Shown here: positions 9,230 through 56,055 of the stretch, piece by piece
How positions within the stretch are numbered: the first letter of the stretch is position 1
How the letters are laid out: every line of letters starts with the position of its first letter
Origin: Flavobacteriales bacterium
GTDB lineage: Bacteria > Bacteroidota > Bacteroidia > CAIKAF01
Length of the DNA stretch: 58,524 nucleotides
Direction of reading: 5' to 3'
Assembly (NCBI GenBank): GCA_025055575.1
Contig: JANWWP010000064.1
Coordinates: 1 to 58,524, forward strand
Made by a program: the position numbers and the translations under genes
The notes under the pieces: generated by a model
Seen by the model: the letters and a program-made list of their open reading frames with translations, nothing else
Database searches by the model: none
What the model was told of the DNA's origin: nothing

Positions 9230-10711
9230 TTAAATTTCTTTGCGCAGCCGGGCCACCGGAATATCCAATTGCTCGCGGTATTTGGCCACGGTTCGGCGGG
9301 CGATATTGTAACCTTTTTGCTGAAGCAGCTCTGTGAGTTTTTCGTCTGTCAGGGGTTTTTTCTTACTTTCATTCCGGATGAGTTCCAGCAAAATGCTTTT
9401 CACTTCCCGCGTGCTCACTTCATCACCGTCCTCCCGGGATATGGATTCCGAGAAAAAATCTTTCAAAAGCTTGGTGCCATAAGGCGTCTGAATGTACTTG
9501 CTGCCCGTCACGCGCGACACAGTGCTGATATCCAAACCCACTTTTTCAGCAATGTCTTTCAGTATCATGGGTTTAAGTTTTTTTTCGTCTCCAGTGGCAA
9601 AGTACTCTGCCTGGTGTTCCATGATGGCTGTCATTACTTTCATGAGGGTGTCCTGGCGCTGTTTGATGGCTTCTATAAACCATCGGGCGGAATCGATTTT
9701 TTGTTTGACGAATTGAGCGGATTCCTTTTGATTTTTATCGTTGCTCATGGCCCTCAGGATGTCAGCATAACGGGGACTGATGCGCAGTTGCGGGGCATTG
9801 CGGCTGTTCAGGGACAAATGCAACTGGCCGTCCATATCTTTTTCTAAAATGAAGTCCGGCGTCACGGAATAGGGATTGCTTTTGACGGACTCAAAAGCGC
9901 TGCCGGGTTTTGGATTCAAATGTAAAATTTCCTGAACGGCTTCCCGAAATTCCTCGTCCTCCAGATGAAGCCTTCTCTGGATGCGGTCATAGTGTTTCTT
10001 GGTAAATTCTTCAAAGTGATCCCGCAAAATCCGCTGAGCGTTTAAAACAGCTTTTTCGCGCGATCCAGAGTTTTCCAACTGGAGAAGCAGACACTCTCGT
10101 AAATCCCGGGCACCCACGCCAGAGGGCTCTAGCTCCTGGACTATGCGTAGGGCTTTTTCCACCTCTTCTTCCGTGCAATGTATTCCGGCCGTAAAGGCCA
10201 GGTCGTCTGCAATTTGGCTCAGACTGCGGCGCAAATACCCGTCTTCATCCAAATTCCCCACAATATGCCGGGCTATTGTGGCGGTTTTTTCATCCATATC
10301 CCGCATGCCCAGCTGCCCCAGCAAGTGCTCCATAAAACTCACATTCTGGACCACAGGCATTTCCCAGGGTTCGTCGTCCGGGCTGTGGTTGGAGGCGTGG
10401 GTTTTGTAATAATTTTCCTCTTCTTCGTTAAGGAATTCTTCGAGCGAAATTTCGGCTTCGTTATTGTCGTTGGGTTCGCTGTCGAGGTCAGGGTCCAGAT
10501 TTTCATCATCACTTTCGGTCGCAGAGGAGTCGCTCTGGGACTCTTCGCGCATATCTATACGGCTGAGATCTTCAAGGGCCGGGTTGTTTTCTAATTCTTC
10601 TTTGATGCGTTGGTCCAGCAGAGCCGTAGGCACTTGCAGAAGTTTCATCAATTGAATCTGCAAAGGCGAAAGTCTTTGCGTAAGCCTTAGGGATTGTTCT
10701 TGTTTTAACAT
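9230..10711 (-). CDS. rpoN: RNA polymerase sigma-54 factor
   Basis: This 493-residue protein shows the full sigma-54 layout. Region I at the N terminus (LTQRLSPLQIQLMKLLQVP) interacts with activators, an acidic linker follows at about residues 45-100, then the core-binding domain with VSFMEHLLGQL and ELEPSGVGARDLRECL, and finally the DNA-binding part with the helix-turn-helix STVSRVTGSKYIQTPYG and the RpoN box ARRTVAKYR. It directs RNA polymerase to -24/-12 promoters and needs an AAA+ activator. No such activator is encoded in this window, nor are the hpf/ptsN genes that often follow rpoN in Proteobacteria. Confidence 0.97.
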   Translation of the reverse strand: MLKQEQSLRLTQRLSPLQIQLMKLLQVPTALLDQRIKEELENNPALEDLSRIDMREESQSDSSATESDDENLDPDLDSEPNDNNEAEISLEEFLNEEEENYYKTHASNHSPDDEPWEMPVVQNVSFMEHLLGQLGMRDMDEKTATIARHIVGNLDEDGYLRRSLSQIADDLAFTAGIHCTEEEVEKALRIVQELEPSGVGARDLRECLLLQLENSGSREKAVLNAQRILRDHFEEFTKKHYDRIQRRLHLEDEEFREAVQEILHLNPKPGSAFESVKSNPYSVTPDFILEKDMDGQLHLSLNSRNAPQLRISPRYADILRAMSNDKNQKESAQFVKQKIDSARWFIEAIKQRQDTLMKVMTAIMEHQAEYFATGDEKKLKPMILKDIAEKVGLDISTVSRVTGSKYIQTPYGTKLLKDFFSESISREDGDEVSTREVKSILLELIRNESKKKPLTDEKLTELLQQKGYNIARRTVAKYREQLDIPVARLRKEI

Positions 10712-38372: not shown

Positions 38373-39263
38373 ATGCAGACACAGAAAAGTCACCGGATTC
38401 CTTTGGGCAACAATATGTACCTTGGACACGGAGAGCCGGTGTTTATCATCGCCGAAATCGGCATCAATCACAACGGTTCCGAAGAACTGGCCCTCAAAAT
38501 GGTGGAAGCAGCGCACGCTGCCGGAGCTAATGCTGTGAAATTTCAGAAGCGTACGCCGGAAATATGCACACCCCCTGAACAGTGGAACCAAGTCCGCATG
38601 ACGCCCTGGGGTGAAATGACATATATCGAGTACAGGCACCGCGTGGAACTGTCCTTCGACACCTACAAAGCCATTGACCGGCTGTGCCGCAATCTGGGTA
38701 TCATATGGTTTGCCTCCTGCTGGGACGAGCCCTCGGTGGATTTTATGCAGGCTTTTGATATTCCTCTCTATAAAATTGCTTCCGCCTCTTTGACCGATAG
38801 GGGCCTACTTGAGAAAATTAAGGCGACTGGCAAACCGGTTATTCTTTCCACAGGAATGAGCACCCCAGAAGAAATTCGTTCGGCTGTGGATATTCTGGAT
38901 TCGGGTCATTTGGCTTTAGCGCATGCCACATCCACCTATCCCTGCCCCCCCCAGGAACTCAATCTGCGTGTCATTGAAACCTTGCGTCGCGAATACTATC
39001 CACTTCCGGTGGGCTACAGCGGTCATGAAACCGGACTGGCCACCACTTATGCCGCCGTGGCTCTGGGGGCGTGCTTCGTGGAGCGGCATTTCACCCTGGA
39101 TCGTGCAATGTGGGGCACTGACCAGGCCGCCAGCGTGGAGCCTGAAGGTTTTCGCCGGATGGTGCGCGATATCCGGGACATAGAACGAGCTTTGGGCGAC
39201 GGTATTAAAAAAGTATATGAAAGTGAATTGGGGCCCCGAGCCCGGCTCAGAAGGTTTTTATGA
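38373..39263 (+). CDS. NeuB-family sialic-acid-type synthase without SAF domain
   Basis: The 296-residue protein is a TIM-barrel synthase of the N-acetylneuraminate synthase family: EIGINHNG (residues 28-35), NAVKFQKRTPE, YKIASASLTDRGLLEK, STGMSTPEEI and GYSGHETGLA then ERHFTLDR. It should condense phosphoenolpyruvate with an aldose, making a nonulosonic or related acid. Typical NeuB proteins have about 340-350 residues with a C-terminal antifreeze-like SAF domain that caps the active site; this one ends before it. It is the first of four genes joined by ATGA overlaps. No CMP-sugar synthetase or epimerase is in the window, so the product is unknown. Confidence 0.85.
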   Translation: MQTQKSHRIPLGNNMYLGHGEPVFIIAEIGINHNGSEELALKMVEAAHAAGANAVKFQKRTPEICTPPEQWNQVRMTPWGEMTYIEYRHRVELSFDTYKAIDRLCRNLGIIWFASCWDEPSVDFMQAFDIPLYKIASASLTDRGLLEKIKATGKPVILSTGMSTPEEIRSAVDILDSGHLALAHATSTYPCPPQELNLRVIETLRREYYPLPVGYSGHETGLATTYAAVALGACFVERHFTLDRAMWGTDQAASVEPEGFRRMVRDIRDIERALGDGIKKVYESELGPRARLRRFL

Positions 39264-46883: not shown

Positions 46884-49571
46884 TTAAGAATTTTCAAGCA
46901 AAATACCTGCCAGCCACTTGTTCTTTTGGGCTTCATCCCAACCTTTGCGGCGAGCGTAATCCTCGGCCTGGTCTGGGAGTATCTTACCCAACCCAAAATA
47001 TTTGGCTTCGGGATGGGCCAAATACCAACCGCACACGGAGGAAGCCGGATACATAGCCAGGTTCTCCGTAAGGCGGATACCACAACGTTCTTCCCCTCCC
47101 AACAGTTCAAACAACGTCACCTTTTCGGTGTGTTCCGGACAGGCGGGATAGCCTGGCGCCGGACGGATACCGCGGTATTTCTCAGCAATCAGCGCCTCAT
47201 TGTCCAGGTTTTCATCGGCCGCATACCCCCAAAATTCTCGACGCACCCGCATGTGCAAATATTCCGCTAAAGCCTCTGCCAAACGGTCCGCCAAAGCCTG
47301 TACCATTATAGCGCCATAATCATCATGTTTTTTTTCGAGGTATTGAATATACGTTTCCAGTCCAATACCGGAAGTCACGGCAAACGCGCCGATATAGTCT
47401 GGTATACCTGTATTTTCTGGAGCCACGTAATCTGCCAAGGATAAGTTCGGAAGGCCGGCGGCCTTTCTGTTTTGCTGACGCAGGAAATGGAGTCGGGCCG
47501 CTATCTCACGCCGGGAATCATCTCTATAAATCAGAATGTTGTCATCCTGCGTGGCGTGGGCAGGAAAAATCCCATATACGGCTTTGCCGTGTAATCGGTT
47601 TTCCCGGATAAGCCTGTCCAGCCAGGATTGGGCATCTTCATACAATTTCCGGGCTTCCGGGCCCGCTTTAGGATCGTCTAAAATTGCCGGATATTTTCCC
47701 GGCATCTCCCAAGTGAGAAAAAACGGTGTCCAATCAATGTATTGGCGCACGGTGGTCCAATCTATGGGGGCCCATTCGTGGACACCAAGCTGGGCCGGCG
47801 GGTGCACCGTTTCAGAACTGAAAACAACGCGGTGTCTGTTTTTTCGTGCTTCGTCCAGATTAAGGAATTCCTTGGCAGCGCTCTGTCCGCTGTGACGGCT
47901 TCGGAGCTCGGCGTATTCAGAGCGGATTTTCTGAATATACGCATCGGCCTTTTCGGATAATAAATTTTCGGCCACAGGCACACACCGGGAAGCATCCAGC
48001 ACATGCACCACTGGCCCCTGATAACAGGGTGCAATTTTTACGGCGGTGTGGAGGCGGCTGGTGGTGGCGCCGCCGATGAGGAGGGGTGTGCGCATCCCCC
48101 TCTTTTCCATTTCAGAAGCCACATGCACCATCTCATCCAAGGAGGGGGTAATCAGTCCACTCAGACCAATGATGTCCACATTTTTTTCTTCAGCGGTATT
48201 CAAGATGGTTTCAGCGGGCACCATAACGCCCAGATCCAGCACTTCGTAATTGTTACAAGACAACACAACGCCCACAATATTTTTTCCAATGTCGTGGACA
48301 TCGCCTTTAACAGTGGCTAAAAGGATACGCCCGTTTTTTCGTGCCGTGGCCGATTCCGCCGCTTCGGCCTCCATAAACGGCTGAAGATAGGCTACGGCTT
48401 TTTTCATGACCCGTGCGCTTTTTACCACCTGGGGCAAAAACATTTTTCCTGCACCAAAAAGGTCGCCCACCACATTCATGCCTGCCATCAATGGGCCCTC
48501 GATCACTTTAAGAGGTGCCCCCAGGTGTTGGCGGGCTTCCTCGGCATCCTGCTCTACAAACTGGTCAAGGCCATGTACAAGGGCATGTTTAAGGCGTTCT
48601 TCCACAGGCAAGTACCTCCAGGCATCGTCCTGCCGCTTGGTTTCCTTGCGGGATTTCACGGTTTCCGCAAAGGCAACCAGTCTTTCGGTGGCATCCGGCC
48701 GTCGGTTGAGGATGACATCCTCCACAAGTTCCAAAAGATCGGGCGGTATATCGTCGTATATCGTGATCTGTCCAGGATTAACAATACCCATGTCCAGACC
48801 ATGGCGGATGGCATGGTACAAAAACACAGAGTGCATGGCTTCGCGCACCGCATCATTCCCCCGAAAAGAAAAAGAAACATTGCTAATACCGCCTGAGACT
48901 CGTGCTCCCGGAAGATTTTCCTTTATCCATTTTGTGGCTAGAAAAAAGTCCACAGCATAGTTATTGTGGCTTTCGATACCCGTGGCCACAGGAAAGATGT
49001 TCGGGTCAAAAATGATTTCCTGGGGTGGTATGCCCGCATCGCGCGTCAATAGTTCATAAGCGCGCTGGCAAATTTGTATGCGGCGCTCTAACGTGTCGGC
49101 CTGGCCTTCTTCATCAAAGGCCATCACCACCATGGCGGCCCCCATACGCCGAATGTAGCGGGCTTGCCTCAGAAATTCGGCTTCCCCGCCTTTGAGTGAA
49201 ATGGAATTGACAACGCCTTTTCCCTGAAGGCATTTAAGTCCGGCTTCTATGACTTCCCAACGGGAGGAGTCGATCATGACCGGCACGCGCGCTATATCGG
49301 GTTCGGCTGACAACAAGCGCAGAAACCGGACCATACAGCCCACCGAATCCAACAGGGCCTCGTCCATGTTCACATCCAGTATTTGCGCACCGTTCAAAAC
49401 TTGCTCGCGCGCCACTTCCAGAGCCTCCCCGAATCGATTGTCTTGAATGAGCTTGAGAAAACGTCGGGATCCTGTGACGTTGCATCGTTCCCCGATATTT
49501 ACAAAATTCACTCCCGGCCCTATTCGAACAGGTTCCAGTCCACTGAGCCACAAGTTGTCCCTGGCGTCCAT
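46884..49571 (-). CDS. metH: Cobalamin-dependent methionine synthase lacking the homocysteine domain
   Basis: The 895-residue protein begins directly at the methyltetrahydrofolate (pterin-binding) domain ([18 protein letters not shown], then [11 protein letters not shown]). A B12 cap and a cobalamin domain follow, with the cobalt-ligand His in [13 protein letters not shown] near residue 421 and [13 protein letters not shown]. The SAM-dependent reactivation domain closes it ([29 protein letters not shown]). Full MetH has about 1,200 residues with an N-terminal zinc homocysteine domain, which is absent here; in Bacteroidota that part is often a separate gene. None is adjacent: the upstream neighbour is divergent uvrC. 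It transfers methyl from folate via B12 to homocysteine together with that partner. Confidence 0.94.
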
Positions 49572-51610: not shown

Positions 51611-52906
51611 TTATTCTGTACCTGCAGCCGGGCTGTCGGAGCCGGAAATGAGCAGAAATGTGAGCTCTGGTACAAACGCCACGATGATCAGAGCCAATAA
51701 TACCATCAATAAGTAGGGCAATGCGGCCACCACGACCCGACCAAAAGGTTTGTTAAAAACGCCGGCCGAGACAAAAAGATTCACCCCCACCGGCGGAGTC
51801 AAGTAGCCGATCTCAAGACCAAGTATAAAAACAATGCCCAGATGGATGGGATCCACTTCATACAACAGGGCCGTGGGTAAAAGAAGAGGGGCCAGGATCA
51901 ACACCGCCGAAATGGAGTCCATGAAAAGACCGACCACCAGAAGGATACCCATGGTGACCAGGAGGAACATGGTTTGGGAAGTGATGAATTTTTCTAGGTT
52001 TTCCAGGAGCCAGAAAGGCGCTTCCTGCAGCACCAGGTAGTAGTTAAAAACCGTGGCCATAGCAATGATAATGAAAATGGTGCCCATCACCATCACCGAA
52101 TCGTGTAATGTGTCTCCTATATCTTTTATTTTAAGACTTTTAAAGAAAAGCATCTCAACGCCGATGGCATACACGGCTCCCACAGCGGCTGCTTCAGTCA
52201 CATTGTAGATACCGCTGTAGATGCCGCCCAAAATCAACACCGGCAGCAACAGGGCCGGAATACCGCGCCAGAAAGCGGTGACCAGATTTTTGGCCGAAAA
52301 TGGCTGCGTGGAAATTTCGAGCCGCAACCCCAGAAAGAGTGCCAGGAGGATGATGAGCAACGCCGTCAAAATGCCGGGTACAATGCCGGCAATGAAAAGT
52401 TTATTGACGTCCGTTCCGGTTACGATTGAAAATATTATCATGGGGATGCTGGGTGGGATAAGAATGCCCAACGAACCGGAAACTGTGAGGACGCCCAAGG
52501 CCATCTTGTCCGGATAGCCTTTTTGAATCATGGCCGGATACATGATGGTGCCAATGGCGATCAGCGTAACGGGCGAGGAACCGGAAATAGCGGCAAACAG
52601 GACACAGGCCATCACAGCTCCGGCAGCCAGGCCGCCGCGCACCCAGCCCAGTGCTGCCATAGCCAGATCGATCAGCCTTTTGGCAATTTCGCCCCGCGAC
52701 ATCAAGGCGCCGGCAAATACGTACAAAGGGATGGAGAGTAGGGCCGGTTTGTTCAAAGAATCGAACATGGTTTTGGTGAGGGAAAACAGTTCTACATCAT
52801 TTCCCATCCAAAAAAGGCCCAGAGACACAGCGCCAATTACCAGGAATAAGGGAGCGCCGATCAGCACTAGAACCAGAAGCAAAAGCACAACGAGGCCCAA
52901 GGTCAT
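51611..52906 (-). CDS. dctM: TRAP transporter large permease (DctM)
   Basis: The 431-residue protein has a dozen or so membrane spans and the typical DctM patterns: LLSIPLYVFAGALMSRGEIA, FAAISGSSPVTLIAIGTIMYP, LGILIPPSIPMIIFSIVTGT and LGLEIGYLTPPVGVNLFVSA. It carries the sodium-driven elevator-type transport step. It starts three bases after the small permease stop and is the last gene of the four-gene operon. The stop is near a 12-base palindrome in the gap to uvrC that is too tight for a hairpin terminator. Confidence 0.96.
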   Translation of the reverse strand: MTLGLVVLLLLVLVLIGAPLFLVIGAVSLGLFWMGNDVELFSLTKTMFDSLNKPALLSIPLYVFAGALMSRGEIAKRLIDLAMAALGWVRGGLAAGAVMACVLFAAISGSSPVTLIAIGTIMYPAMIQKGYPDKMALGVLTVSGSLGILIPPSIPMIIFSIVTGTDVNKLFIAGIVPGILTALLIILLALFLGLRLEISTQPFSAKNLVTAFWRGIPALLLPVLILGGIYSGIYNVTEAAAVGAVYAIGVEMLFFKSLKIKDIGDTLHDSVMVMGTIFIIIAMATVFNYYLVLQEAPFWLLENLEKFITSQTMFLLVTMGILLVVGLFMDSISAVLILAPLLLPTALLYEVDPIHLGIVFILGLEIGYLTPPVGVNLFVSAGVFNKPFGRVVVAALPYLLMVLLALIIVAFVPELTFLLISGSDSPAAGTE

Positions 52907-52909
52907 GGG

Positions 52910-53434
52910 TCAGAGCACCTGTTTTGAAACAAATTCCTCTTCTTTCAAGCGTCCCCGAAATACTTCCAGCCAGAGAAAAATGCCGAAAAAAAAGCGGAGC
53001 GCCGAAATGGCAAAGCTGACGGGAATAATGGCCACGATATACCAGAGCGGAATATCCAACACCAAGTCCCGGTCTCCTAATTCCCGGCTTTGTACAACGT
53101 ATTCGTAGCCATAAAAGGCAAACTGAAACAGAAATAAGGCCGCCAGAAGGCAGGCCGTCATGTTCATCACGGCTTTGACCTTGCCGGAAACCCGTGCTTT
53201 TAAAAATTCCACCTCTATGTGGCGCATTTTGGCGGTGGCAATCTGGAAACCCAGGAAACCGAGCCACACCATCGCATAGGTGGCCAAGCGGTCGGCCCCG
53301 AAGATCGGCTGGTTTAAGACATATCTGGAAAAGGTGCCTGCAAAAACAACAACCACAATCCCCGAAATCAAAAGAATTGCGAGCAGTTTTTCAAGAACCC
53401 CTATCCAATTATTCAGGCTGAGGTATCGCCGCAT
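52910..53434 (-). CDS. dctQ: TRAP transporter small permease (DctQ)
   Basis: The 174-residue protein has four membrane helices: LEKLLAILLISGIVVVVFAG, LATYAMVWLGFLGFQIA, MTACLLAALFLFQFAFYGYE and IPLWYIVAIIPVSFAISALR. MVWLGFLG followed by an IEVEFLKARV segment is characteristic of DctQ. It partners with the large permease. It starts five bases after the solute-binding-protein stop. Confidence 0.93.
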   Translation of the reverse strand: MRRYLSLNNWIGVLEKLLAILLISGIVVVVFAGTFSRYVLNQPIFGADRLATYAMVWLGFLGFQIATAKMRHIEVEFLKARVSGKVKAVMNMTACLLAALFLFQFAFYGYEYVVQSRELGDRDLVLDIPLWYIVAIIPVSFAISALRFFFGIFLWLEVFRGRLKEEEFVSKQVL

Positions 53435-53439
53435 CCGAA

Positions 53440-54492
53440 TTATTTTTTGGGAGCGGCTTTACCGGAAGGTGCCGTGGGTGAGACTTTCTGGCTGTCTTTG
53501 AAGGCCCGGAGATGAGTATTCACTTCTTGAATGAGATTTTTTCCGATTTTTCCTTCCAAAATTGTGTACACCGGTTGGGAGGCTTTTTTAAAGGCTTCCC
53601 TCTGGGCCTCTGAAAGATTATACACTTTGATGCCGATACCCGGGAATGAACCCAGCACTTCGGCATCCTCCTTACGCACCAGTTCCCTGGAGGTTTTTTG
53701 AAGATTTTGCCTTTCGGCACGGGCAAGAAGTGCCTGTTGAAGGTCGGCCGGCTGCTTGTCTAAAAAGCGTTTTGAAACCACCACGGCGCCGGGCTGATAG
53801 ATATGTTTGGTCAGCGTAAAATGTTTGACGGTGTTAATCCAACTGGAAGAAAGGGAAAAGACGGGCGTCTGGTCGTAGCCGTCCACCATGCCGGTCTTTA
53901 AAGCCACCAGCACTTCCGGGGTGGCGATGGGCACAGGGGTGGCTCCGAGTGCTTTGTAGAACTGAATGTAAACATCCGATTCCTGGGCACGCATTTTCAA
54001 TCCTTTGAGGTCAGCGGGGGAGAGGGCTGGTTTTGATTTGGTGCCAAAACTGCGCCATCCGTTGGTGCCCCATAAAATGAGGACAATGCCTTTCTGCGCT
54101 AGTATTTCGCTCATTCGGTCAAACATTTTGTCCATGACGTAGTCGGCTTCCTCATCGCTGCTAAATAAAAAAGGCAACTCAAACAATTGCAGCTGTGGAA
54201 GGGATAAAGCTTCAGCCATAGCCGCCAGGCTAAATGCTCCCGCGTCCAAAGACCCCATCGCAATGCTTTTGATCATCTCTACTTCCCCGCCCAGCTGCCC
54301 GCCGAGGTAAGTTTTAAATTTCAGGCGTCCGCCGGATTTGCTTTCAGCCTGTTTCACATAGGCCATCACCCCTTCCTCCCAGGGGCTGTCTTTAGGAATC
54401 ACACTGCCAAAGCGCACTTTGACAACTTCTTGGGCAGGAAGACTGAGATAAAATAGACTTCCCAGACCCAGGGCCAGCACTCTTTTTTTCAT
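53440..54492 (-). CDS. dctP: TRAP transporter solute-binding protein (DctP/TatP type)
   Basis: The ATG at 54492 is chosen because it begins a signal peptide (MKKRVLALGLGSLFYLSLPA) and follows the TatT-like stop by 13 bases; the longer frame to 54618 runs through that gene. The product has 350 residues with the DctP pattern VRFGSVIPKDSPWEEGV, GGQLGGEVEMIKSIAMGSLD and DLKGLKMR, whose Arg usually grips a ligand carboxylate. The C-terminal tail is Lys/Pro/Ala-rich. No lipobox is seen, so it should be soluble in the periplasm. In TPAT systems it works with the TPR subunit. Confidence 0.93.
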   Translation of the reverse strand: MKKRVLALGLGSLFYLSLPAQEVVKVRFGSVIPKDSPWEEGVMAYVKQAESKSGGRLKFKTYLGGQLGGEVEMIKSIAMGSLDAGAFSLAAMAEALSLPQLQLFELPFLFSSDEEADYVMDKMFDRMSEILAQKGIVLILWGTNGWRSFGTKSKPALSPADLKGLKMRAQESDVYIQFYKALGATPVPIATPEVLVALKTGMVDGYDQTPVFSLSSSWINTVKHFTLTKHIYQPGAVVVSKRFLDKQPADLQQALLARAERQNLQKTSRELVRKEDAEVLGSFPGIGIKVYNLSEAQREAFKKASQPVYTILEGKIGKNLIQEVNTHLRAFKDSQKVSPTAPSGKAAPKK

Positions 54493-54505
54493 TTTGTGAT
54501 AGGTA

Positions 54506-55324
54506 TTAATCGAACAATTCCGTTTCCTGTGCCAGCAAAGCCTTGGCTTTGCTTTTGGCAATTTCATTTTCGGGTGCAATATCCGGATAGGCAGAGACAT
54601 CGGCTTCCAGCACCTCATTCAGCAGTTTTCGGAACAGTTCGCGATCTTTTACTTTTCCATGGGTGCAATAAGCCTCTGCAAATAGCACTTTGGTTTCCAG
54701 GTAGTGGGGTGCGCTTTGAACCCCTTTTTCAAACATCTCTTTGGATTTCACCGGATCTTGTTCTCCCGTTATGGATGGCACCAGGGCAAAATAACCGCCA
54801 AAGAATCGGTACACTCCGCCATAATTATAGTCTGGGTCCACTTCCATCACGCGGTCCCACAGATAGCGAACGCGGGACTTCACAGCCAGTTTTTTGCTAA
54901 AAGGCGCAAACTTGGCATACCGCGCCAGGTTGGCGGCAGTCCAGTAAAAGGCATCCATATCCTCTTTTCCTAATTTTTTGATAATGTTTTCTTCTTTTTC
55001 CTTAGCCGCCAGGCCTTCCTTGTATTTTGGCAGGGTGGAAAGTGCGGTTTCGCCGGCTTTTACGCCTTTTTCGAACCATTCCAGCTTTGCATTTTTGTCG
55101 GCTGTTCCTTCTCCTTTAAAATAATAGGCACGCGCCAGCAAAACCGCAACATCACGTTGGGGAGATTGGGTCAGAATTTCTTCCCCTAGTTTAATGCAGG
55201 CCTCCAATTTTTCAGGATTAAGCCGTTCCCTGAACAGGGCTTGCATAGCCGACACATCGTTCTGGGCCGCAAGGAAAGGCATCCAGCCAATGATCCACGT
55301 GAAAAACAAAATTTGACGCACCAT
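54506..55324 (-). CDS. TatT-like TPR subunit of a TRAP transporter (TPAT)
   Basis: The 272-residue protein has a signal peptide (MVRQILFFTWIIGWMPFLAA) and then helical repeats that follow the pattern of Treponema pallidum TatT (Tp0956): VAVLLARAYYFKGEG, KEDMDAFYWTAANLARYAKF, VMEVDPDYNYGGVYRFFGGY, and SAPHYLETKVLFAEAYC. TatT trimers pair with the solute-binding protein TatP and are proposed to handle hydrophobic ligands. Unlike TatT, which is a lipoprotein, no lipobox Cys is present. It is the first gene of the operon, with a TTTG-N20-TATTTTTG promoter 16 bases upstream. Confidence 0.85.
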   Translation of the reverse strand: MVRQILFFTWIIGWMPFLAAQNDVSAMQALFRERLNPEKLEACIKLGEEILTQSPQRDVAVLLARAYYFKGEGTADKNAKLEWFEKGVKAGETALSTLPKYKEGLAAKEKEENIIKKLGKEDMDAFYWTAANLARYAKFAPFSKKLAVKSRVRYLWDRVMEVDPDYNYGGVYRFFGGYFALVPSITGEQDPVKSKEMFEKGVQSAPHYLETKVLFAEAYCTHGKVKDRELFRKLLNEVLEADVSAYPDIAPENEIAKSKAKALLAQETELFD

Positions 55325-55340
55325 AAGCTTTGATTTTGGC

Positions 55341-55372
55341 CAAAAATATTTTATGGCTCACAATAGAACAAA
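55341..55372 (-). promoter_or_regulatory. Promoter TTTG-N20-TATTTTTG of the TPAT operon
   Basis: On the minus strand TTTG (55372-55369) precedes TATTTTTG (55348-55341) by 20 bases, within the accepted -33/-7 spacing. The element ends 16 bases before the TatT-like ATG, implying a leader of about 12 bases. Confidence 0.68.
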
Positions 55373-55449: not shown

Positions 55450-56031
55450 TTAGGAAGAAATTTTGGTTAAAATAAATGAAGTGGTCTTTGAATCTTCACC
55501 CTCTTTTTTATTTACAGTCCACACCCTAAGTCTCTCCGGTGACAGAAATTGATATTTCCAAAGGGCATCTTGTTGAGGGTTGTCAAGTTTAACCCCTTTC
55601 AGGGTCAATAAACTATCCGAAGGACTGACGGTGAAAGTGCCGGATTTACTATCATGTTCAAAATACTTTCCCTCGAAATCCCTAAAAAAGACACTTAAGG
55701 ACACTTTGTCGGGATTTTCAAACTTCAATTGAATATAAAATTGCATGAGTTTATTTTCTACAATATCACGGGCATAGCTGAAAGCTTCCGCCGTATCCTC
55801 TGCCGTGAGGGGTTCATACTCTCCATCTCCCTTGTAACGTCTTTGGAGTTCAGCATCTAAAGAATTATGGACTAGCTGCTGAATAAAAGAATCCGGAGCA
55901 TTGAAGTTGAGTCTTCCTTCAGGAGCTTCAATTTCCGTCATTTTCCATGTCCCGTAAAAAGCGGTGCGGGGATCTTTTTTACAGGATAAGAAAAAGAGAG
56001 TGGATACGATGAGAAAAGAAAATGTTTTCAT
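55450..56031 (-). CDS. Lipocalin-like hypothetical lipoprotein
   Basis: The ATG at 56031 (MKTFSFLIVSTLFFLSCKKD) starts a lipoprotein signal with Cys at residue 17; an ATG two codons earlier is also possible. The mature part of about 175 residues begins RTAFYGTWKMTEIEAPEG, a GTW start typical of lipocalin-like domains, and alternates strands such as DKVSLSVFFRDFEGKYF and SGTFTVSPSDSLLTLKG. I recognise no named family. It follows the YkuK-like gene by 24 bases and probably shares its transcript. Confidence 0.75.
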   Translation of the reverse strand: MKTFSFLIVSTLFFLSCKKDPRTAFYGTWKMTEIEAPEGRLNFNAPDSFIQQLVHNSLDAELQRRYKGDGEYEPLTAEDTAEAFSYARDIVENKLMQFYIQLKFENPDKVSLSVFFRDFEGKYFEHDSKSGTFTVSPSDSLLTLKGVKLDNPQQDALWKYQFLSPERLRVWTVNKKEGEDSKTTSFILTKISS

Positions 56032-56055
56032 AATCAATAGAATTCGTTTTTGAGT

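Follow-up and report, generated by a model that had tools for sequence, protein, structure and literature searches.

TPR-assisted TRAP importers (TPATs), in which a TRAP transporter is aided by an additional helical protein, are a little-studied class, and papers on the Treponema pallidum system, PMC4646407 among them, describe its physiological ligand as undetermined. A 58,524-nucleotide contig from a Flavobacteriales bacterium (JANWWP010000064.1, hereafter the window) contains a set of genes that an earlier sequence-only reading interpreted as a TPAT operon, which raised the question of whether its substrate is acidic or hydrophobic. That reading had placed four genes 13, 5 and 3 bases apart, and the coordinates bear this out: tatT, dctP, dctQ and dctM follow each other with these gaps, all on the minus strand, within positions 51611-55372 (Table 1). 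A second in-frame ATG for dctP, at 54618, lies upstream and within tatT. The TTTG-N20 promoter that was also proposed is present in the sequence, but as a match alone it is weak, since the window contains two matches to the Bacteroidota-type pattern where chance would give 0.71, and 16 shuffles reached two. Scans of the window for sigma-70 promoters and terminators found 8 of each, not many more than the 4.1 and 7.1 expected at random.

Table 1. Features of the TPAT operon in the window.
Feature	Coordinates	Strand	Length	Basis and remarks
tatT-like gene	55324-54506	minus	272 aa	PF16811 match; N-terminus resembling a Sec signal, no lipobox; predicted T component of TPAT
dctP, TRAP substrate-binding protein	54492-53440	minus	350 aa from ATG	PF03480
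dctQ, small TRAP permease	53434-52910	minus	174 aa	PF04290; hydrophobic stretches
dctM, large TRAP permease	52906-51611	minus	431 aa	PF06808, TIGR00786
Bacteroidota-type promoter-like TTTG-N20-TATTTTTG	55341-55372	minus		pattern match; ends 16 bases before the tatT ATG

The first gene had been called TatT-like, to be refuted by a missing match to the TatT family or by a structure lacking the TPR funnel; the family search and the predicted structure both support the assignment. The 272-residue product matched the TAtT family (PF16811) in Pfam with an E value of 6e-31 and 108 bits, well over the cut-off of 26.5. We modeled the protein with AlphaFold2 from five sequences, with a mean pLDDT of 82.6 and a weaker region around residues 161-200. 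The model has the same fold as PDB 8g52, the T component of a "bacterial TPAT family transporter" released in 2023 for which our literature search found no relevant paper (30-32% identity; Foldseek E value of 4.7e-11 and TM score of 0.83; VIA Z score of 28.4 over 256 residues). It also matches T. pallidum TatT (VIA Z of 22.8 for 3u64/4di3; Foldseek TM of 0.70 for 4di3) and the helical ring of the TatT-like sterol binder BstC (7t1s; VIA Z of 18.3). Since other helical repeat proteins start at a Z of 17.4, 8g52 and T. pallidum TatT are clearly above background and BstC is barely so. The likeness to the Treponema protein that had been noted thus holds for the fold, whereas in sequence Tp0956, the T. 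pallidum TatT, is only distant (22.9 bits with a profile) and 8g52 is the nearest solved TatT (124 bits by phmmer, 160 bits with a profile). Judged by family membership and predicted fold, the first gene product is a TatT, the T component of a TPAT.

The three other genes encode the DctP, DctQ and DctM proteins of a TRAP transporter. Pfam matches were strong for DctP (PF03480; 1e-62, 212 bits), DctQ (PF04290; 6e-25, 88 bits) and DctM (PF06808; 2.5e-99, 333 bits), the last of which also matched TIGR00786 at 378 bits. The window has separate Q and M proteins, whereas one dctQM homolog is described for T. pallidum in the parts of PMC5812351 and PMC4646407 that deal with it. DctP contains the motif DLKGLKMR, whose arginine, said in the sequence-only reading to grip the ligand of carboxylate TRAP systems, is indeed retained as R168 (codon 53991-53989), and it keeps a second pocket arginine, R147 (codon 54054-54052). 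Fischer et al. 2015 (PMC4646407) present the arginine of TRAP binding proteins as a selectivity filter restricting them to carboxylates, and report for Tp0957 an alanine at that position and a hydrophobic pocket. The T. pallidum-like hydrophobic subtype is marked by the lack of an arginine at the position of SiaP Arg147, where the window DctP has Arg168. All three families and the arginine of the substrate-binding protein (SBP) are present. TRAP transporters of the DctP type whose SBP takes organic acids share these features but have no TatT. The solved structures nearest to the window DctP are, by their titles, TRAP SBPs for dicarboxylates and sugar acids. In our DctP model, residues 190-207 form a weak stretch with pLDDT under 50.

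We wondered how widespread such systems might be among the relatives of this bacterium. The genome to which the window belongs encodes a single copy each of TatT, DctP and DctM, and this is its only TRAP system. In a sample of 395 Bacteroidia genomes, 27 had a TatT-family match, 24 of them over the cut-off, and 22 carried a tatT TRAP unit; in the family of the window's bacterium, the system occurs in 6 of 16 genomes and 2 of 6 genera. The five matching genomes that we left out were G288 (a contig-edge fragment), G394 (below the cut-off, region not fetched), G116 (weak at 29.8 bits, the fetched stretch lacking any match to DctP, DctQ or DctM) and G060 and G080 (both below the cut-off, with no TRAP match). 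The weak TatT-family proteins of G116 (L028/L055), G060 (L029/L053) and G080 (L030/L054), with no TRAP genes nearby, are perhaps solitary TatT-like carriers like BstC. A DctM match of more than 200 bits was found in 47 of the 395 genomes: these comprise the 22 TatT carriers, with a single such DctM apiece, and 25 genomes that gave no TatT match. The order TatT-DctP-DctQ is common to the window locus and the 21 relatives, and 20 of these 22 clusters include DctM, while the flanking genes are not conserved, which argues that the gene order is not due to chance. As the flanks vary, no substrate can be inferred from the neighbors, and no neighboring catabolic gene points to one. Two loci, L037 and L039 (in G022 and G041), have tatT-dctP-dctQ without dctM, and the sole full-length dctM of each genome lies elsewhere. 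In L052, a short open reading frame (9343-9705), presumably encoding a protein resembling a four-helix bundle, is found between dctQ and dctM.

A second sample, of 395 genomes from the whole phylum, revealed another kind of TPAT. Besides that of the window, 18 genomes had a TatT at 230-277 bits; G578, which is among these 18, also had a second TatT at 99 bits. All but one of these 19 loci are of a single type (Trp-type, L083-L100) with the same TatT family and the same tatT-dctP-dctQ-dctM order as the window; L102 (in G619), below the cut-off, was left out of this set. The remaining locus, L101, is the second system of G578 and groups with the type of the window, its DctP being 43% identical to the window's and keeping the arginine. 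We therefore defined an Arg-type set of 23 loci: the window, the 21 other Bacteroidia loci and L101. Position 168 of DctP is an arginine in 23/23 Arg-type proteins and in all 25 ordinary TRAP SBPs that were aligned, but a tryptophan in 18/18 Trp-type proteins. The latter show further changes, namely N144 to V (in 17 of 18), R147 to V, Q170 to W, D207 to Y and H230 to L, and their pocket is hydrophobic. G578 carries both a Trp-type (L088) and an Arg-type (L101) system, which fits different ligands. We later searched 351 genomes of the class of G578, 102 of which had a match, and added 20 fetched loci (2 at about 100 bits and 18 above 235 bits) to the fixed alignments. In the two low-scoring loci, L158 and L159, DctP has N-R-R-Q-D-H at these six positions and TatT has the five basic positions described below. 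The 17 others with a scorable DctP have V/I, V, W, W, Y and L/I, and their TatT positions are without charge; L175, whose best DctP match is on the other strand, was left unscored for DctP, and its TatT fits the Trp type. All 19 scorable TatT-DctP pairs thus follow the two-type pattern, which is a test of consistency and not of independent evolution since these loci are relatives of the first set. These findings show that Bacteroidota TPATs split into two chemical types, Arg and Trp. Since the two types are two clades, the matched change in TatT and DctP is probably one event and not many independent ones.

How TatT differs between the types was assessed by mapping the window TatT onto BstC with a phmmer alignment, which at 20.8 bits is weak. 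The tunnel and cavity residues of BstC, which was studied as a sterol carrier and binds sterols, are listed in the portion of PMC10942540 used here; on the alignment the listed residues have a constant offset of 14 and all 16 inside it show the listed letter, an agreement that checks the numbering and not the alignment of window TatT with BstC itself. At these 16 tunnel-aligned positions, 23/23 Arg-type TatTs have five basic and no acidic residues (R135, K138, K145, K149 and R173 in the window; R173 codon 54808-54806), while 18/18 Trp-type TatTs have none of either, with two of the positions being gaps in that type. A basic difference of five was reached by 0.7% of 2,000 random sets of 16 positions. 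Arg-type TatTs are also more basic overall, with a mean net charge of +0.7 against -8.5 for the Trp type. As read from the printed alignments, four of the 16 positions are basic in 8g52 and one in Tp0956; like the window TatT, 8g52 has an arginine at the R173 position and is basic where 135, 138 and 149 align. Because BstC, a sterol binder, also has an arginine at the R173 position, this residue alone does not imply an acidic cargo. If the alignment holds, the basic positions of the window TatT would face the pore.

These results bear on the possibility that the ligand is hydrophobic and uncharged, as proposed for T. pallidum, with the retained arginines being relics or binding a polar head group. 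The TatT fold is indeed common to a protein with a hydrophobic pore, and the sections of the review PMC5812351 on this point describe the pore and cleft of the T. pallidum pair as hydrophobic and count hydrocarbon degraders among the other organisms that carry such a system. Such a ligand nevertheless appears quite improbable for the window system, since Arg168 is kept throughout the Arg type where the hydrophobic type has Trp and Tp0957 has Ala (as given in part of PMC4646407), the nearest solved DctPs are, by title, dicarboxylate or sugar-acid binders, and the tunnel-aligned TatT positions are basic, albeit on a weak alignment. The question of an acidic or a hydrophobic substrate can thus be answered provisionally, from these sequence features, in favor of an acidic one.

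TPR-like folds usually bind proteins, which would suit a TatT that never touches the ligand but partners DctP in docking or assembly, its basic residues serving for protein contacts or stability. The difference in charge between the types extends to the whole protein, the ring and tunnel are predicted features only, and two systems of the same DctM/DctP clade (L127 and L129, see below) have no annotated TatT alongside, which suggests that the TRAP permease can do without it. We still regard this explanation as fairly unlikely, because the difference in charge is concentrated at the tunnel-aligned positions, with few random sets showing one as large, and because TatT charge goes with the DctP pocket in the later-fetched loci as well.

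We also considered that the window might encode an ordinary importer for dicarboxylates or sugar acids that merely lies beside an unrelated TPR gene, as could be suspected from its DctP, whose closest sequence relatives among solved structures are ordinary TRAP SBPs. Trees were computed with 41 DctP (all of them), then with 42 DctM and 40 DctP, and then with 33 DctM and 35 DctP sequences, L118 being left out. With Bacteroidia TRAPs as the outgroup, both TPAT types fall on one side (supports of 94/95 for DctM and 95/84 for DctP), and the DctM and DctP of the window are placed together with those of other TPATs and separated from every TatT-less Bacteroidia TRAP in the sample. Taken with the PF16811 membership of its TatT and the linkage of tatT in 22/22 Bacteroidia loci, this makes a chance neighborhood of an ordinary TRAP system highly improbable. 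When Proteobacterial TRAPs were added, L127 and L129, which are plasmid systems of Pukyongiella and Sulfitobacter (Roseobacter group), fell inside the TPAT group (supports of 100/99 and 100/100). No annotated TatT is found near either. A separate plasmid search for TatT gave no match. TPATs forming one clade was neither shown nor rejected (p-AU of 0.498 and 0.096 for the DctM and DctP trees), and we make no claim of a single TPAT origin on account of these values and of the two systems inside the group that lack an annotated TatT. L129 adjoins beta-oxidation-type genes.

In T. pallidum, TatT and DctP are likewise encoded with a TRAP permease, and this pair (TatT/TatP, Tp0956/Tp0957) consists of lipoproteins according to the parts of PMC5812351 and PMC4646407 concerned. 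In the window, by contrast, neither TatT nor DctP has a cysteine in its first 40 residues, in agreement with the lack of a lipobox read from the sequence earlier, and the window thus falls outside a T. pallidum-like subtype with a lipoprotein TatT. This lack extends to the whole set of Bacteroidia TatTs, since a clear lipobox is absent in 22/22; L049 has an early GIAC within its hydrophobic core that we did not count. Lipobox-like cysteines are found in the TatTs of the 18 Trp-type loci (15 by pattern and 3 by eye), in Arg-type TatTs outside Bacteroidia (ISC/TSC-(A/S)GR sites in L101, L158 and L159) and in the printed N terminus of 8g52 (SGC-KGR). DctP has no lipobox in either type, with one possible exception, L090. 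Since Arg-type TatTs elsewhere and 8g52 have such cysteines, the missing TatT lipobox is best read as a loss in Bacteroidia and hence as a trait of this lineage. The assignment of the window system to a distinct Arg type of TPAT, non-lipidated in Bacteroidia, is well supported.

The mechanism that we favor, and consider probable, is that of an acid-type TPAT in which DctP binds an organic acid, TatT acts as a charge-matched conduit and DctQM carries out the import. In the periplasm, DctP would bind the acid by means of R168 (and R147) and hand it to the DctQ-DctM permease, for which Na+-coupled import is expected by analogy with characterized TRAP systems. TatT, an exported protein without a lipid anchor, would form a helical ring docking on DctP, and the same acid would pass through its pore lined with about five basic residues; TatT might thereby feed or shield an amphipathic carboxylate that is crossing the periplasm. 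Amphipathic acids, fatty or hydroxy acids for example, would suit both a helical pore and an arginine. For T. pallidum, a route across the outer membrane via FadL-like proteins to TatT/TatP is suggested in passages of PMC8407342.

More tentatively, with chances that we would put at slightly under even, we propose that TatT pore and DctP pocket switched polarity together, giving two TPAT classes that combine either a basic pore with a carboxylate-binding arginine or a neutral pore with a tryptophan. TatT would then be a ligand conduit and first selectivity filter instead of a passive docking protein, and the Arg class of Bacteroidia would be a relay of two fully soluble proteins that takes an amphipathic acid through the periplasm. 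What most deserves a test is whether TatT and DctP are matched in polarity; if the charges of TatT pore and DctP pocket do match, TatT is likely a ligand conduit. The Arg type lends itself to this because its soluble, lipid-free pair should be easy to purify and its ligand should be a carboxylate. A further lesson of this type is that a hydrophobic cargo should not be taken for granted in every TPAT.

The surroundings of the operon in the window show a few other features. The gene immediately upstream of tatT, also on the minus strand (55450-56037), is small and lipoprotein-like (LSCKKD near the N terminus); it has no Pfam match and is not conserved beside the operon in relatives. A minus-strand gene (46884-49571) encodes a B12-dependent methionine synthase, whose pterin, B12 and activation domains were recognized but in which no match to the homocysteine-binding domain was found; it is probably part of a split MetH whose first part is located elsewhere. 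About 12 kb from the TRAP operon, a plus-strand gene of the NeuB family (38373-39263) encodes a sialic-acid-synthase-like protein, which would make, and not import, sialic-type acids.
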